Source: a virus
Reading direction: 5' to 3' (one strand)
DNA length: 59,940 nt
IMG/VR virus record: IMGVR_UViG_3300027908_000028
Coordinates: 1 to 59,940 of that record
Position numbers and translations under genes: made by a program. Positions within the stretch are counted from its first letter, which is position 1. Every line of letters begins with the position of its first letter. Of the stretch, positions 48,044-56,042 are shown piece after piece. The notes below the pieces were generated by a model that was not told the DNA's origin, searched no databases, and saw only the letters and a list, made by a program, of their open reading frames with translations.

Positions 48044-48508
48044 ATGAAACGACTGTTCATTCTCGCCCTGTTTCTCTTGCCAGCGTACGTCATCCTGACA
48101 CCTGCGCTGGTCTTCGCTCAGGTGATCGTTTCGCCCACGGCACCGCCATCGATTACAGAGGCCTTCGTCGTCGTCACGATCGTCGGCTTCGTCGTTGGCT
48201 TCTTGGCGCAAGGTCTGAAGACCGGAAACCTCTTCGGGATCCTCTTCGTTCCGCAGAAGTGGGCGCCCTATCTCGGAGTCGTGCTGACTTTTCTGACGGG
48301 TGCCGAGCAAGGGCTCAGTGCTTCGACCACGCTGACCGGAGCTGTTTGGCTGAACGTTGTCTTCCTCGGATTCCAAGCGCTCATGACGCAAGGCGGAGCC
48401 GCTGCACTCCACACGCACACGAAGAAAGCGGACGAGGATTCGGGACCACCTTCTTCGGATGCTGCAAAGGCTCCTCCGCTTCCGCGCCCAATCAATCCAG
48501 CGAGTTAG
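48044..48508 (+). CDS. Membrane protein with signal sequence (holin candidate)
   Basis: 154 residues. A signal-like N-terminus (MKRLFILALFLLPAYVILTPALVFA) is followed by spans AFVVVTIVGFVVGFLAQG, LGVVLTFLTGAEQG (weak) and AVWLNVVFLGFQALM, then a polar His/Lys/Pro-rich tail. Topology fits a three-span holin or another phage membrane protein. Its 3' end overlaps the convergent gene at 48492 by 17 nt. Confidence 0.7.
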   Translation: MKRLFILALFLLPAYVILTPALVFAQVIVSPTAPPSITEAFVVVTIVGFVVGFLAQGLKTGNLFGILFVPQKWAPYLGVVLTFLTGAEQGLSASTTLTGAVWLNVVFLGFQALMTQGGAAALHTHTKKADEDSGPPSSDAAKAPPLPRPINPAS

Positions 48509-48701
48509 CGTTTCTCAGCTTCACGACTTCGAACGCGACCGAATCGAGTAGCCGGAGGACTTCGTTCAAGCGAGCGACTTCCTCCGGCATCAGGTCTTTC
48601 ACCGGAGTTTCGTCGAGAATTGCACGAGCTTTTTGAGTGAATGACCGTGCTTGCCCGAGGGCATTGGAAGCACGGTTGGCACAACTTCTCTGAGCACGCA
48701 T
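48492..48701 (-). CDS. Small helical protein, unknown function
   Basis: 69 residues from ATG 48701. On the minus strand the start is 7 nt after CGGCATCAC, which decides it over the longer frame to 48770 that runs through palindrome copy 8. Helical and charged (ARAILDETPVKDLMPEEVARLNEVLRLLDSV). No family is recognised. Confidence 0.65.
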   Translation of the reverse strand: MRAQRSCANRASNALGQARSFTQKARAILDETPVKDLMPEEVARLNEVLRLLDSVAFEVVKLRNANSLD

Positions 48702-48726
48702 GCCCGGAGTGATGCCGTACCCTCGC

Positions 48727-48748
48727 GACCGAAAGTTGACTTTCGGTC
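48727..48748. repeat. 22-bp palindrome, copy 8 (one central mismatch)
   Basis: Centre is GTTGAC. Lies just upstream of the leftward gene at 48701, so unlike most copies it is at a 5' end. Confidence 0.9.
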
Positions 48749-48809
48749 GTCTTTCAAAGTATCCCTTCACGCGCGCGCGTCACTCGCAGGTGCGCAACCG
48801 ACTATGAAT

Positions 48810-49010
48810 GATCACTTAGATCTCATTAGTACTGATCTGTGATCACAGAGAGATCAGTACTGGGACTTCTCTTCGAGAAGTCCTTACGCTTCGCTACGCT
48901 CGCGTGAGACGGATCGAGATCCAAACACTGCGTGAGCGATCCGAGGGAGAAGAGATCCGAGAAGTAAGATCCGGAAATAAGAGATCCAGAAAAAATAAGT
49001 GATTCAAAAG
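48810..49010. other. Candidate replication origin
   Basis: Eleven GATC sites lie in 177 bp (48810-48986). An 11-bp inverted repeat AGTACTGATCT/AGATCAGTACT (48828-48838, 48851-48861) surrounds GTGATCAC, and a 9-bp stem (48863-48883) follows. Five GATCC iterons at 48918, 48938, 48954, 48968 and 48983 have 14-20 bp spacing and lead into an AT-rich stretch (AAATAAGAG, AAAAAATAAG). It sits directly before the replication genes. Function is inferred from architecture only. Confidence 0.55.
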
Positions 49011-49039
49011 ATGGGTCGGCGTCTCGAAAGGAAACTGCC

Positions 49040-49348
49040 ATGGGCATCAAGACAGGAGAGCTGTTCGAGAGTGACGGGATCAGTCACCGCGCGTGGATGG
49101 TGCGATGCCCGGCATGCGATGCGCCCCACTCGTTCGACAAGCGATGGACGTTCGTGAACGGCAATCACGAGGCGCCCACGTTCACCGCGTCGATGCTCGT
49201 GAAGTTCTACGAGGGCGACCCCAAAGATCCGGCGAGCAATCGCGTGTGCCATTCGTACCTGACTGACGGCGTCTGGAACTACCTGAGCGATTGCACGCAC
49301 GCGATGAAGGGACAGAAGATTCCCGCACCGGACTGGATCGCCCCCTGA
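49040..49348 (+). CDS. DUF6527-like small protein
   Basis: 102 residues, ATG 49040 with AAAGGA upstream. CPAC at residues 23-26, WTFVNGNHEAPTFTASM, CHSYLTDGVWNYLSDCTHAMKGQ and a final PDW match a phage/plasmid family of small proteins often called DUF6527. Probably zinc-binding; role unknown. Confidence 0.75.
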   Translation: MGIKTGELFESDGISHRAWMVRCPACDAPHSFDKRWTFVNGNHEAPTFTASMLVKFYEGDPKDPASNRVCHSYLTDGVWNYLSDCTHAMKGQKIPAPDWIAP

Positions 49349-49399
49349 AACGAATTGGCGTGTTGTGGATCGAAGACGGCATTACGGTCTCTGTCCCGA

Positions 49400-52036
49400 A
49401 TGGATTCCGTTCACATCCGCATCGACAACAGGGTCCGCGTCGACACGACGGGACTCGAAGACGTCGTCACCAATGCGCTGAAGGAATCGTTCGACCATTC
49501 CAACCCCGAGTTTCACAAGCGCCAGCACATGGGCTTCGCGACGTGGAACATCCCGCGCGAGATCCGGACCTGGAACGAAAGCAACTCCTGGAATACCAAG
49601 GCGCTCGACTTCCCCCGCGGCGGAGCTGCCCGAGTGCGCGAGGTACTCGATCGCTACGGACTCGATCGCGTGTACGAAGACGCTCGCTGTCTCGGCGCAT
49701 CACTCACGAACGAGATCCCCGATCACAAGGTCGAACTCTGGGACCATCAGAAAGAACTCGTCGACGCCGCGGTCAAGCTCGAGAACTGCATTCTGAAAGC
49801 GCCGACCGGATCGGGAAAAACGACAGTCGCCTTCGCCATCGCTGCCCGCTTGAAGCTTCCGACGCTGGTCATCGTCTCGACGGCGGCACTCTTCAAGCAA
49901 TGGGTCACTCGAGCAGAAAAAGAACTCGGGATCCGAAAGCGCGATCTTGGAATCATCCGCGCGGGCAAGCGCAAGCTCGGAGTACTCACGATTGCGATGC
50001 AGCGCTCTCTCGCCGTCGGAGGGATCGACGGCGATCTCGCGAGGTACTTTGGGTGCGTCATCGCGGACGAATGTTTCGAGTCACACACCCCAGTGTTGAT
50101 GGCGGATGGGACGCACAAGCACATCGAGGACATCGTGGAGGGGGACGAGGTTGCCTTGGGTGGACGGGTGCTTGGCGTGGGGAGTCGCTGGTATGAGGGA
50201 AAGTTGTCGACGTGCGGAGGTAGTCTCGTGACACCCGAGCATCCTGTCTGGACGGAAAGGGGGTGGGTGCCGACAAAGTCTGTTTGCAGCGAAGACAATC
50301 TCAGGCACGATCCGTTGCATGAAGTGCGACGTTTGCAACAAACCTCTTCCAGGACAAAACCGGCGGGGGAGATGTCGTTCCCATGGGATGGGAACGTTCG
50401 ACAAGCAGACGGACGAGTGTCTGTTATGCGGGAGGCAGGTTCCGGCGAAGAAGCGCGGGTATCACGCCTCGACGAAGTGCGAAACTCGGGGGCCTTGGAA
50501 CAAAGGCAAGACGTCCGAGGACTCGCTTTCGGTTCGAGTGGGCGCCGAGAAGCGCAAGGGGCAAGTGCGCACTACGGTAAGCAGGATGTTCCGTCAGCTT
50601 TGGCGCGATCCGAAGAAGCGCGAGCAGTGGACCAAGAGCATGTCTGTAGGGCAGCGCAAACGATTCGAGAAGGACGAGGAACGAAAGGCGTCAAGGGAGC
50701 GTACGTTGGGGCTCATCAAAGAGGGGAAGATGAAGGCGTACGGGGGCAGGACACATGGCAAAGGCGCGATCCCCACTTCCTCGGAGCTGGCACTGTGGAG
50801 GGCGCTGCGCCCACTGGGCTTCAAAAGAGAACTGGTCGTGAGGACCGGGCAGCGGACGCCGACTTACTACGCATTGGACTTCGCGCACGAGGAGACGAAG
50901 TTGGCGTTGGAGATCGACGGGAGCAGTCACCAGCCGAAGGCGAGGAGGGAATCCGACGCGCGGAAGGATGCATTTCTCAAGACGCGTGGGTGGACAGTAA
51001 AGCGCTTCCGGGAGACGTCCGACTCGAGAGACATCGTGGCTTGGTGCGAGCGTTGGATGGTGTCGTTGGCTCGCTGAGGGTTCACAACCTTCAGACTGAA
51101 CGAGGGGTGTACGTGGCAGCCGGGGTGCTCGTACATAACTGTCAGCTCTTCGCAGCCAAGACGTTCATCGAGACCATTGATCCGTTTCCGGCCAAGTACC
51201 GAATCGGGATCTCTGCCGATCACCGCCGCAAGGATCGAAAGGAGTTTCTGATCCATGATCTCTTCGGCAGTGTGGCCGCGGAGGTGAAGCGCCGCGATCT
51301 CATCGACGTGGGCGTCATCGTCGACACGCTCATTCGCGTCGTGCCGACCAACTTCGAGGCGCCTTGGTACGGCAAGCCCGACGACGAACATCCAGCGACC
51401 TTCGAGCAACTTCTGGATGACCGAAAGTCGACTTTCGATCCGTCTGAGATCGCCAAAGAGCTGGACTGGGACAGGTTGCTCGAAGAGATGGCCAACGATG
51501 AAGACAGGCAGCGTCTTGCCGCGTGGTGCGTGAAGGACGGACTACGCGAAGACTCTCAGGTGCTCGTGATGAGTCATCGTCGCGATCACTGTCGCGCGCT
51601 CGATCAAGAGTTCGTGCGCATGGGCCTGACGACAGGCTTTCTCATCGGTGGTGCGGACTACCAACGCGAGTTCGACGCGGTGCGTACACGGTTCGAAAAA
51701 GAAGATCTTCAAGTTGCCATTGGTACATTTCAGGCAATCGGATACGGTATCGACTTACCCAAGGCGTCCGTTGTCGTATGCGTCACCCCCATCGCGTCCA
51801 ATCAGTTTTTCTTCAATCAGGTGCGGGGACGCGTGTGCCGCAAGGCCAAAGGCAAGACGGGCAGCACCATGTTCTACCTCTGGGACGAGAAGCTCTACGG
51901 GGACAAGCATCTCCGGAATCTTCTCCGATGGAATGGTCACGTGGTCGTGTGGGTCGGCGGCAAGTGGATCGGGGCGAAGGAATATCTGCGCGACAAGCGC
52001 GACAAGGCGAAAGCCACTGAAGGGACCGAAACATGA
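49400..52036 (+). CDS. SF2 DEAD/DEAH-type DNA helicase interrupted by an intein
   Basis: 878-residue precursor from ATG 49400. Motif I APTGSGKT at 134-141, motif II split as VIADE | C by the intein (residues 225-580), then CQLFAAKTF, so the spliced motif II reads DECQ. Motif VI QVRGRVCR at 807-814. The mature helicase would be 522 residues, like XPB/UvsW-type phage helicases acting in replication or recombination. Residues encoded by 51419-51440 (DDRKSTFD) come from a palindrome copy. The frame is open to 49355, with ACGGCATTAC upstream. Confidence 0.9.
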   Translation: MDSVHIRIDNRVRVDTTGLEDVVTNALKESFDHSNPEFHKRQHMGFATWNIPREIRTWNESNSWNTKALDFPRGGAARVREVLDRYGLDRVYEDARCLGASLTNEIPDHKVELWDHQKELVDAAVKLENCILKAPTGSGKTTVAFAIAARLKLPTLVIVSTAALFKQWVTRAEKELGIRKRDLGIIRAGKRKLGVLTIAMQRSLAVGGIDGDLARYFGCVIADECFESHTPVLMADGTHKHIEDIVEGDEVALGGRVLGVGSRWYEGKLSTCGGSLVTPEHPVWTERGWVPTKSVCSEDNLRHDPLHEVRRLQQTSSRTKPAGEMSFPWDGNVRQADGRVSVMREAGSGEEARVSRLDEVRNSGALEQRQDVRGLAFGSSGRREAQGASAHYGKQDVPSALARSEEARAVDQEHVCRAAQTIREGRGTKGVKGAYVGAHQRGEDEGVRGQDTWQRRDPHFLGAGTVEGAAPTGLQKRTGREDRAADADLLRIGLRARGDEVGVGDRREQSPAEGEEGIRRAEGCISQDAWVDSKALPGDVRLERHRGLVRALDGVVGSLRVHNLQTERGVYVAAGVLVHNCQLFAAKTFIETIDPFPAKYRIGISADHRRKDRKEFLIHDLFGSVAAEVKRRDLIDVGVIVDTLIRVVPTNFEAPWYGKPDDEHPATFEQLLDDRKSTFDPSEIAKELDWDRLLEEMANDEDRQRLAAWCVKDGLREDSQVLVMSHRRDHCRALDQEFVRMGLTTGFLIGGADYQREFDAVRTRFEKEDLQVAIGTFQAIGYGIDLPKASVVVCVTPIASNQFFFNQVRGRVCRKAKGKTGSTMFYLWDEKLYGDKHLRNLLRWNGHVVVWVGGKWIGAKEYLRDKRDKAKATEGTET
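50072..51139 (+). other. Intein (356 residues) in helicase motif II
   Basis: Starts at Cys225 (intein Cys1) and ends with His-Asn before Cys596-equivalent (+1 Cys). Block A: CFESHTPVLMADGTHKHIED with GDEV; block B: LVTPEHPVW with Thr54 and His57; block F: VHNLQTERGVYVAAG; block G: VLVHN then C. No LAGLIDADG or in-frame HNH domain. Intein residues about 83-335 are low-complexity Arg/Gly/Glu-rich because that DNA encodes the nuclease in the +1 frame. Confidence 0.9.
50319..51077 (+). CDS. Vsr-like EDxHD homing endonuclease nested out of frame in the intein
   Basis: 252 residues in the +1 frame relative to the helicase, ending 3 nt before block F. N-terminal zinc-finger pairs (C3, C6, C19, H22; C34, C37, H49, C54), a GPWNKGK NUMOD-like motif, a basic helical linker and a C-terminal PD-(D/E)xK nuclease: E156, D187, EID 198-200, H204 and D213/D217. 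This is the EDxHD pattern of Vsr-like homing endonucleases such as I-Bth0305I. The upstream frame is closed by TGA at 50229. No clear ribosome-binding site precedes ATG 50319. Confidence 0.85.
   Translation: MKCDVCNKPLPGQNRRGRCRSHGMGTFDKQTDECLLCGRQVPAKKRGYHASTKCETRGPWNKGKTSEDSLSVRVGAEKRKGQVRTTVSRMFRQLWRDPKKREQWTKSMSVGQRKRFEKDEERKASRERTLGLIKEGKMKAYGGRTHGKGAIPTSSELALWRALRPLGFKRELVVRTGQRTPTYYALDFAHEETKLALEIDGSSHQPKARRESDARKDAFLKTRGWTVKRFRETSDSRDIVAWCERWMVSLAR
51419..51440. repeat. 22-bp palindrome, copy 9, inside the helicase gene
   Basis: Right arm ends CGATC (one mismatch). Here the element is translated in frame as part of LLDDRKSTFDPS. It is the only copy inside a well-supported gene. Confidence 0.9.
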
Positions 52037-52818
52037 GAAAGCGAAGCGACGTTCAAGCAGCGGCAGATCCGAGACAGACAGCCATTCCAGGGACCGAAAC
52101 TCCCAAAGCCGTGCCTGATCCCCCGCCGAGCAGTCCTCGCCCGAAGTCTTCGACCTCGTCCGCGCCCGACCACGTCACGGTCGACAACGGGATCGTTTTC
52201 ATCAAGTGCATCGATTGTGGTCTCAATCAGTCTGCGGCAACCGGCAAGCTCGTCGAGATGCCCAATGGCAAGAAGCTTCTGCACTGCGTTCGGTGCAATG
52301 GCCTTCTCGATCCGGACGAGGAGCTGACTCCGGAGTTTCTCGAGAAGCTCAAGGCGCAGTCGGGCAAAGCCGCTACCCCGGCTCCCGCACAACCGCCTCC
52401 CAAGGCAGCCGCTCCGGCTCCGAAGCCTACTCCCGCGCAGAGCGCCCCGAATACGAGTGGTCCCAAGTGCGTCAAGTGCGGAGTCACAATGACGCAGACT
52501 TCGAGTGGTCTCTTCGCTCCGTGCGGACACCCGCAGACGACCACGGCACCGAGCGCGACTCCTGTCACGGGTGCCGAGGGAGAGACCGTGACTGCGTGCT
52601 ACGGCGAGGAGAAGTTCTCTCCGCGGCAGTATCAGAGTTTCGGGATCGGGCCGTTCTTCCGGACGACTCGTCTTCAGCCCGGTGAGAACGCTTCCCAAGC
52701 GCTCGCACGCGCCAGCTCCGAGCTTCGCACCTTCGCTCAGATCGAGTTCGAGCAGAAGGCGAAGGACTTCCTGTCCAAGCTAGAGTGGCTCGATGCGAAG
52801 CTTGGGGGTGGCAAGTGA
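52033..52818 (+). CDS. Zinc-ribbon protein of the replication module
   Basis: 261 residues, ATG overlapping the helicase stop. Two Cys4-type sites: C59/C62 with C85/C88, and KCVKC near 148-152 followed by APCGH. A Pro/Ala-rich linker separates them. The C-terminus (YGEEKFSPRQYQSFGIGPFFRTTRLQPGENASQALARA) is a domain seen in phage replication neighbourhoods. Possibly a ssDNA-binding or helicase-accessory protein; inferred. Confidence 0.75.
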   Translation: MRKRSDVQAAADPRQTAIPGTETPKAVPDPPPSSPRPKSSTSSAPDHVTVDNGIVFIKCIDCGLNQSAATGKLVEMPNGKKLLHCVRCNGLLDPDEELTPEFLEKLKAQSGKAATPAPAQPPPKAAAPAPKPTPAQSAPNTSGPKCVKCGVTMTQTSSGLFAPCGHPQTTTAPSATPVTGAEGETVTACYGEEKFSPRQYQSFGIGPFFRTTRLQPGENASQALARASSELRTFAQIEFEQKAKDFLSKLEWLDAKLGGGK

Positions 52819-53327
52819 GCACCGTTCCGGAATCGCTATTCGACGTCGATCCCCCCGAAGGCAAGGATCGTGAGTTGGCGGACAAGATGGTCCGCACCTT
52901 CCTGGGATCGAAGATGGAACCCAAGAAGACGGCCAAGACGATCAGTGACTCGGTGTGGAACAAGCTCCTTCGCGAGGTCGATGTTTGGATGCGCACGGGC
53001 GATTGGCGCAACGCGGGTCCGCGTCATCTCGTCGCTCTCTACGAGATGCTTCACACACGCATCTACGAGGTGAAGCCCGTGGAGCTGGGACCGACGACGC
53101 GTCTGCATGCAACAGGTGCCGCCGCGCGTCTGCTCGATCGGGAGTTCGACGGCAACATCTCCGAGATGGTCGATTTCATGCGCTGGACGTGGATGCGGGA
53201 AGAGGATCGCGAGAAGTGGCGCCGCGCGAACAATCGCGACGGGGGCCACATCGGTTGGAAGTACCAGTTCTGCGGAACTATCTTGACGGAGTACCGTCTC
53301 GCCAACGTGCGCAAGGCCGCGCGGTGA
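52815..53327 (+). CDS. Unknown replication-module protein
   Basis: 170 residues from GTG 52815 (GTGA overlap). Helical, with DKMVRTFLGSKMEPKKTAKTISDSVWNKLLREVD and FMRWTWMREEDREKWRRANNR. The final part resembles DNA-binding extensions of phage replication initiators. No definite family is recognised. Confidence 0.7.
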   Translation: MSTVPESLFDVDPPEGKDRELADKMVRTFLGSKMEPKKTAKTISDSVWNKLLREVDVWMRTGDWRNAGPRHLVALYEMLHTRIYEVKPVELGPTTRLHATGAAARLLDREFDGNISEMVDFMRWTWMREEDREKWRRANNRDGGHIGWKYQFCGTILTEYRLANVRKAAR

Positions 53328-53545: not shown

Positions 53546-55078
53546 ATGCGACGGCGCAGCGATGTATCGGGAGACGTGTTGCCTAAAGCGACGAGTGAAC
53601 TCGTCGTCAAAGTCGACCTAGTCAATGAGCAAGTTATCATCACCGCGACCATTGTCTCGCTTTGCAGTGACGATTCGGGTCCGGCGTATCGGCTTCTCGA
53701 CAGACTCCCGCCCGAGGTCTTTACTGACGATCGCGCGGCGATCTGGGCTGCACTTCGAGCGATGCGCCAGAGGCGGCTTGCCTACGATCCAGCGACACTC
53801 CAGTCCATTGCGGGTGACAAGGTTCGCATCTCCCTCCTCGCGGAGTGGGTGACGGCGCGTCCCGAGTTCCCCGAGAACATCGAGCATCATGTTGATTCTC
53901 TCCTCTGGGACCGCAAGCGCTCGCAAGCGGTCAAGGGTCCACTCGCATCGCTTCTCGAGGCAATCAAGAACCCACTCGAGACACCCGAGCGAGTCAATGC
54001 GCTCGCACGCGGCATCGTCGATGCCCTTTCAGGACACGAGCGACAATACATCTACGATCCTGCCGCGATCGTCGCTGAGCAGATGGCTGAGATCCGCAAG
54101 CGACTCGAGGGGCAAGCGGTCTACCCCTTCGGGCTCGATGGCCTCGACTACTACGAAGCGGACATCCAAGCGCACCGCCCACGGCGGATGATCCCCGGCA
54201 CGGCTCCAGGCCACGTCACGGTCATCACGGCTGTTCCCGGTGCGGGAAAGAGCACTCTCGCCGCACGTATCGCGCTCGGACTCGGAGTCACCAATCACCG
54301 CCGGGTTGCGTATGGCGCGTGGGAGGTCAAGGGTCCGATGACCCTTGAGATCATGGCATGCATGTCGCTCGGGTGGAGTCGTACCGATCTGCTCGATCCT
54401 CAGGGAGCACTGAAGAAGGGCAAGCCGCTCACTCCCGAGCTTCTCGTGCAGCTCGAGGAGAAGATGCACGAGATCGCTCGATGGGTGACGTTCATCAAGA
54501 ACCCTTTCCGGCGACGTGCCTCCGAGCGCAAGAGCGCCAAGAGCAATGAGGCGAATCTCGATCTCGTTCAGTCACTCGTTTCGGAGTCCGGGTGCGAGGT
54601 CTTCATCGCTGATCTCTGGGCACGGTGTCTCGCGTCGCGCGATCCCGGCGACGAAGAAGAGGCGCTCTTTCGGCAACAGGCGATGCTCGAAGAGATGGGC
54701 GTCCACGGGATCCTCGTGCATCAGCAACGGCACAAGGACATTGAGCTACGAAACGACAAGCGGCCTACGCGCGAAGGGCTCAAAGGATCGGGCGCGTATC
54801 TCGAGACGGCCGACAACTTGATCGGCGTCCACCGTCCGGCACAATGGCGGAAGGTCGAAGACGACAAGATGGAGCTTTTCATCCTGAAACAACGATCGGG
54901 CGAAGAGCGCATTGGCATCGAGTTCGATTGGAATCCTGAGACCGGAGAGATCAGGGGTGGACGATCCATCGATTATGATCCGATGGGCGATGCGTCGGCT
55001 CGATTGGGTGACTCGTTCACGCGCCCGAATACGACGTCGGACATCTCTTCAGAGAAACGGTCGAAACGTGGTCGCTGA
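53546..55078 (+). CDS. DnaB-like replicative helicase
   Basis: 510 residues. An N-terminal DnaB-type helical domain (about 25-140) precedes a RecA-like ATPase: Walker A PGAGKS with K235, a VAYGAWEVKG region, a CEVFIADLW Walker-B strand, HGILVHQQRHKDIE and a LKGSGAYLETADNLIGVHR segment like the SGxIEQxAD motif. It would unwind DNA at the fork with the primase encoded next. Start ATG 53546 is consistent with the domain limits. Confidence 0.85.
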   Translation: MRRRSDVSGDVLPKATSELVVKVDLVNEQVIITATIVSLCSDDSGPAYRLLDRLPPEVFTDDRAAIWAALRAMRQRRLAYDPATLQSIAGDKVRISLLAEWVTARPEFPENIEHHVDSLLWDRKRSQAVKGPLASLLEAIKNPLETPERVNALARGIVDALSGHERQYIYDPAAIVAEQMAEIRKRLEGQAVYPFGLDGLDYYEADIQAHRPRRMIPGTAPGHVTVITAVPGAGKSTLAARIALGLGVTNHRRVAYGAWEVKGPMTLEIMACMSLGWSRTDLLDPQGALKKGKPLTPELLVQLEEKMHEIARWVTFIKNPFRRRASERKSAKSNEANLDLVQSLVSESGCEVFIADLWARCLASRDPGDEEEALFRQQAMLEEMGVHGILVHQQRHKDIELRNDKRPTREGLKGSGAYLETADNLIGVHRPAQWRKVEDDKMELFILKQRSGEERIGIEFDWNPETGEIRGGRSIDYDPMGDASARLGDSFTRPNTTSDISSEKRSKRGR

Positions 55079-56042
55079 CGTCGAGGCTGTCCTGCGTGTG
55101 CTCGAGATCAAAACCGAGCGACGCGAGCGCGCTGGGTGCCTCTGGGGACTTTGTCCGTTTCACGCGGATACCTCGCCAAGCTGGCGCATTCGTGTCGATC
55201 CCGATCATGAGCGCTACGGGCAGCACCACTGTTTCGCGTGTCAGTCAGGGGGAACGCTCGCGGAACTGGTCTCGCACGTGCGCGGCATCACGCTCTCTGG
55301 CGCGTACGACTGGCTAGACGAATTCAACGAGAAGGTTCACGTTGTTCAGCGAGAGGTCCCTGGCGTGCGTGTCGAGATGACGACGGCAGAGCGCGTCTTT
55401 CGAATGCCGCCGGAAGTGATCTTCGCGCGCTGGGAAGATTGGGTCTCTCCTGCGCGCAAGTACCTCGAAGAGCGCGGTGTCACGAAGAGGCAAGTCGACA
55501 TGTTCGGGATCGGCTACGCGGTCGACGGCCGACTTGCCGGACGCATCGTGTTCACGGTTCTTGATCCCGCGACGATGTCCCCTGTCTCGTACATGGCGCG
55601 CGACTTCTCGGGAAGCCGTCGTGCGAAGCGTTACCTCTGGCCAGCATCGGAGGAGAATGCCGACTCTGACATGATGTTTGGTGAGCATCTCTGGACGTTT
55701 CCGGCGTACCGGACAGATATCGTAGTCACCGAGGGAGCCTTCAATGCGCTCGCGGTCGAGCGCGCACTACTCGGACCCAATAGGGTCACGGTCGGTGCCT
55801 TGGGAACCTCGGCACTTCGCGACGAGCATGCGGGGAAGCTTGCGACTTTCAAGCGTGTGATTGTCCTGACTGATGCCGATCCAGCGGGTGACAAGGCTGC
55901 GAACGAATTGCATACCGCGCTCGCGCGCCACACGCGCGTCACTCGTGTTAGATTGGCTACTGGCAAGGACGCAAACGATCTCTCTGTCGAAGATCTCCGA
56001 GCATCGCTATGGCCCGCCCTCATCACTCCACCTCCTACCTGA
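55068..56042 (+). CDS. DnaG-type primase (zinc finger plus TOPRIM)
   Basis: 324 residues from GTG 55068, overlapping the helicase end. CHC2-type zinc site C29, H32, C55 and C58; a middle RNA-polymerase-like part; TOPRIM motifs VVTEGAFNAL with E222 and LTDADPAGD with D269 and D271. It makes RNA primers for the DnaB-like helicase encoded just before. A 3' overlap of 34 nt with the HTH gene occurs. Confidence 0.85.
   Translation: MVADVEAVLRVLEIKTERRERAGCLWGLCPFHADTSPSWRIRVDPDHERYGQHHCFACQSGGTLAELVSHVRGITLSGAYDWLDEFNEKVHVVQREVPGVRVEMTTAERVFRMPPEVIFARWEDWVSPARKYLEERGVTKRQVDMFGIGYAVDGRLAGRIVFTVLDPATMSPVSYMARDFSGSRRAKRYLWPASEENADSDMMFGEHLWTFPAYRTDIVVTEGAFNALAVERALLGPNRVTVGALGTSALRDEHAGKLATFKRVIVLTDADPAGDKAANELHTALARHTRVTRVRLATGKDANDLSVEDLRASLWPALITPPPT

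Follow-up and report, generated by a model that had tools for sequence, protein, structure and literature searches.

Few large uncultivated phages have had their replication origins located, and the stretch at positions 48771-49039 of the viral record studied here raises the question of whether replication starts there, as a preliminary description had proposed on account of its GATC cluster, inverted repeats, GATCC iterons and AT-rich sequence. The window, by which we mean the whole stretch of DNA analysed, is the entire viral record of 59,940 bases, with structural genes (portal, major head protein, baseplate) occupying its left and centre. No end repeats are recognisable in the window, and since the relative G001 measures 99,644 bases and its gene order continues across its ends, about one third of the window phage's genome is probably absent from the record. 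For the region from 48 to 55 kb there was no match to described phages at the DNA level; the major head protein shares 31-33% identity with its counterparts in Streptomyces phage Kromp and in two Komagataeibacter phages. The interval between the tail and the replication genes (45.3-48.8 kb) contains a holin-like membrane ORF on the plus strand (48044-48508) together with several ORFs on the minus strand. The ORFs tested in this interval gave no family matches, and orf92 (48492-48770, minus strand) carries no coding signal.

The stretch lies directly 5' of a replication operon, which bears out its description as immediately preceding the replication module. From 49 kb onwards the plus strand encodes orf102 (phrog_3362, 49040-49348), an intein-interrupted SF2 DNA helicase with ResIII/DEAD and Helicase_C domains (49355-52036), orf261 (52033-52818), orf180 (52785-53327), a DnaB-type replicative helicase (53546-55078) and a DnaG-type primase with zinc ribbon and Toprim domains (54912-56042). 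The product of orf180 is predicted with confidence to be all-helical (mean pLDDT 87.7), and the gene adjoins DnaB in 15 of the 16 loci examined. Searches with orf180 returned no family, no PDB sequence match and no convincing fold match, which does not imply a new fold, and its identification as a known loader was accordingly rejected. No initiator protein was recognised either; going by position, our guess is that this conserved helical protein without recognised relatives, to which the present work points, is a candidate helicase loader or initiator. The intein of the SF2 helicase (about 50081-51121) is located at the DE box, and an ORF for a 252-aa DUF559/Vsr-like nuclease (50319-51077, plus strand) falls within its coding span in a different frame, so that the nuclease appears to be nested out of frame inside the intein. 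The helicases of the loci L025, L027 and L036 carry their interruptions elsewhere, those of L027 and L036 at the Walker A motif (PTGC/SGKT). In L026 (2068-4647) orf261 is apparently fused to the SF2 helicase, which suggests that the two proteins work together.

The composition of the stretch sets it apart from the rest of the window. Its AT content is 50.2% as compared to about 40%, a level reached by 10 of 5968 windows of the same size, and the ORFs running across it have poor or marginal coding scores, so that the earlier statements that it is much AT-richer than its surroundings and holds no gene are both correct. A simple gene caller nevertheless took an antisense ORF (48826-49050) as a gene, and most of its calls near the locus in the relative G016 were antisense frames; for this reason the gap lists of the gene caller were used for gap matching only. 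The 100 bp of lowest duplex stability in the whole window fall at 48796-48895 (nearest-neighbour sum 129.4 versus a mean of 154.0), and a purine-rich flank of 60% AT (48961-49037) reaches as far as the ribosome-binding site. The stretch stops at the ATG at 49040, which is preceded by a plausible ribosome site, GAAAGGAAACTGCCATG.

Three strong inverted repeats are packed into 60 bp at the locus, and those claimed earlier are real. The first, of 34 bp (48828-48861), consists of the arms AGTACTGATCT and AGATCAGTACT (48828-48838 and 48851-48861, 11 of 11 positions paired) around a central palindrome (48836-48849, with CTGTGATCACAG at 48837-48848). It is followed by a hairpin in the fold, GGACTTCTC-TTC-GAGAAGTCC (48863-48883), with arms at 48863-48871 and 48875-48883 that pair at 9 of 9 positions. 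The 34-bp inverted repeat, the central palindrome and the AGATCC-AT stretch are each unique to the locus within the window, and an exact search of viral contigs with the 34-bp repeat gave no match. These single-copy elements differ in this respect from the dispersed palindrome that adjoins them, a copy of which, CGACCGAAAGTTGACTTTCGGTCG (48726-48749), forms the left border of the locus. Its consensus GACCGAAAGTCGACTTTCGGTC is present in the window in 11 near-perfect copies (5158, 10188, 19448, 22260, 30177, 37640, 43606, 48728, 51420, 57470 and 59013), mostly intergenic and in many cases overlapping a stop codon. A palindrome particular to the contig, likewise often intergenic, occurs 10-25 times in many relatives (G001-G006, G008, G010, G011, G014 and G015; for example AAAAGCGCTTTT, AAACCCGGGTTT, TGGATCGATCCA and GAGGTCGACCTC).

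The GATC cluster comprises exactly the eleven sites in 177 bp that had been counted (48810-48986, with starts at 48810, 48819, 48834, 48841, 48852, 48912, 48918, 48938, 48954, 48968 and 48983) and is the densest GATC stretch of the window, the runner-up having seven. The window as a whole is rich in GATC (681 sites versus 487 expected, 1.4 times), and given this density a scan maximum of at least 11 has a probability of P = 0.0115; the cluster is thus above chance, though to call it far above chance was generous. Among the best clusters of all 256 tetramers that of GATC ranks as the 12th most extreme, 11 others reaching equal strength at some point of the window, and taken together these two figures mean that the cluster alone proves little. 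Five short GATCC repeats on the plus strand (48916-48988), four of them of the form AGATCCR, start at 48918, 48938, 48954, 48968 and 48983. Five within 70 bp is likewise more than expected (P = 0.009), but as they have only 5-7 bp in common and are irregularly spaced (20, 16, 14 and 15 bp), iterons is a loose word for them. Triplets of AGATCCR proved too common in viral contigs to be informative as a search motif. We also rejected AGAGATC as a common binding motif (8 occurrences in five loci versus 0.24 expected), because the five loci had partly been picked for GATC and most relatives lack it.

It is the comparison with relatives that lifts the locus above chance. A DnaB profile search retrieved 16 contigs, of which 15 are viral contigs and one belongs to a Methylocystis genome bin; 15 of the 16 were analysed in full. 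In most relatives, as in the window, the arrangement is tail, gap, helicase, DnaB and primase, and the operon of helicase, orf261, orf180, DnaB and primase is conserved, while no homologue of orf102 was found in the relatives' loci. In G001, the sole relative searched directly, the gap ahead of the helicase shows no sequence conservation. An easily melted site at this position does recur across the family: in the 15 relatives, with the window excluded, the 700 bp preceding the helicase gene are easier to melt than gap-matched controls, namely windows taken from the same contigs ahead of other genes that follow a gap of 150 bp or more (combined P = 2e-5). In 4 of 16 contigs, the window being counted among them, the stability minimum of the entire contig, taken over 100 bp, falls before the helicase (G002, G008, G016 and the window; P = 7e-6), and in G003, G005, G007, G010 and G015 the best stretch of the gap is in the lowest 0.3% for stability. 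No marked minimum is found within 700 bp before the helicase in G001, G004, G006, G009, G011, G012 and G014; some relatives without a minimum have other genes close before the helicase, as inspected in L027. The gap-matched melting test thus provides a concrete, testable position in a phage family with contigs of 65-103 kb.

The GATC cluster recurs in a smaller part of the family. In G002 (10 sites in 180 bp) and G003 (6 sites) no other GATC cluster of the contig is as strong as the one before the helicase, and with the window left out GATC ranks first among the 256 tetramers for this behaviour. Family-wide there is no enrichment of GATC before the helicase (87 sites observed versus 82 expected), and G001, the closest relative in DnaB, lacks both a GATC cluster and a melting minimum at this place. 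The Methylocystis-bin contig, L037 (JAMBEQ010000266.1, 103,476 bp), is a member of the phage family with a D12-type (Dam-like) methylase of its own. The curated cut-off for D12 is passed in G007, in G010 and in the genome behind L037, and N6/N4 methylases are encoded by several relatives.

GC skew, proposed in the preliminary description as a check, has a minimum at the locus in the window and in several relatives, its sign switches nearby in the window and in many relatives, and in 7 of 16 contigs the detrended minimum falls within 1 kb of the helicase start. At four-fold degenerate sites, however, the shift is gone from the window and from G001 and has no consistent direction elsewhere, the count being 7 contigs up and 8 down, from which it follows that it mainly reflects the amino-acid composition of the proteins. 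Skew was therefore rejected as evidence for an origin. The window contains no DnaA box (TTWTNCACA).

Probably this locus switches on replication, or at any rate the replication genes. We give about an even chance to the reading that it acts as an origin of replication in addition to controlling the replication operon. An initiator, either phage-encoded (perhaps the orf180 product) or supplied by the host, would bind at 48810-48988, where the palindrome and the short repeats with their GATC sites lie, the adjacent DNA of low stability would then melt, and the DnaB-type helicase and the primase encoded downstream would be loaded at the melted site. The stretch would accordingly combine a cis-acting replication start site with the leader of the replication operon. 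The proposal of a candidate origin thus stands as regards meltability, place before the operon and recurrence in relatives; that the locus fires as an origin we infer.

Nearly as likely is a promoter/operator region and leader of an early replication operon without origin activity, in which the GATC palindromes would be operators and the AT-rich stretch the promoter. Such a region would look much alike. Counting against an origin are the loss of the skew signal at four-fold sites, the failure to find a DnaA box or recognise an initiator, the lack of family-wide GATC enrichment and the absence of both features from G001. In favour of the promoter reading, a long plus-strand operon follows directly, the palindromes are operator-sized, a purine-rich leader ends in a ribosome site, and the adjoining copy of the dispersed palindrome contains TTGACT. 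On the other hand, no sigma-70-type promoter was found at the locus or in two relatives, although the promoter type of the host may differ. We prefer the origin because other gaps of the same genomes, some of which are expected to hold promoters, are harder to melt than the locus.

A more specific proposal, which we regard as improbable, is that in part of the family the origin is methylation-sensitive, with GATC sites in the melting zone tying the start to the adenine-methylation state of the phage DNA, in the manner of P1 oriR and bacterial oriC, though through an initiator not recognised here, perhaps the orf180 product. No D12 methylase is encoded in the 60-kb window, and a link to Dam-type methylases was discarded, as neither D12 nor N6/N4 methylases clearly track the GATC cluster. 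We hold it to be very unlikely that the hairpins work in the mRNA, as an attenuator or RNase site in a structured leader with incidental GATC sites: the RNA fold of the locus is stable (z = -4.1, no shuffle being equally stable), but it matches no Rfam family, includes no intrinsic terminator, and its sequence is not conserved in the one relative directly searched, whereas DNA meltability is conserved. That an AT-rich gap arose by chance in a GATC-rich genome is least credible of all, for although the scan P is only about 0.01 and other tetramers cluster equally strongly, the same place stands out in the gap-matched test of the relatives and GATC comes first among the tetramers there.

Returning to the origin reading, the locus shares features with several known systems. 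P1 oriR (AF234172) packs five Dam (GATC) sites into 55 bp, beside the initiator sites and adjoining the initiator gene, and its repeats read on the other strand as AGATCCA/AGATCCC, resembling the AGATCCR found here; a GATC cluster in repeated heptamers of the P1 type is thus present. P1 oriR also has 19-bp RepA iterons and a DnaA site, whereas 48700-49060 holds no direct repeat array of such length, and no RepA was found in the window phage. Lacking long iterons and a DnaA box, the locus does not belong with P1 oriR, and the apparent likeness rests on a 6-7 bp motif and GATC density. In the lambdoid origin (ori-lambda), short repeats are followed by an AT-rich tract and adjoin the replication genes (PMC7466680). 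An AT-rich, low-stability tract beside repeats is present here too, but the lambda iterons are longer, regular and located inside gene O, while the repeats here are short, irregular and intergenic, and no O-like protein was recognised in the window phage. The Cluster O mycobacteriophages (Corndog) have an AT-rich element beside complex repeats that was proposed as a possible origin, and they also carry unexplained dispersed palindromes (PMC4351075), which those of the window phage and its relatives resemble. Although phage group and sequences differ, the Corndog phages thus combine an AT-rich candidate origin with dispersed palindromes, as is the case here.
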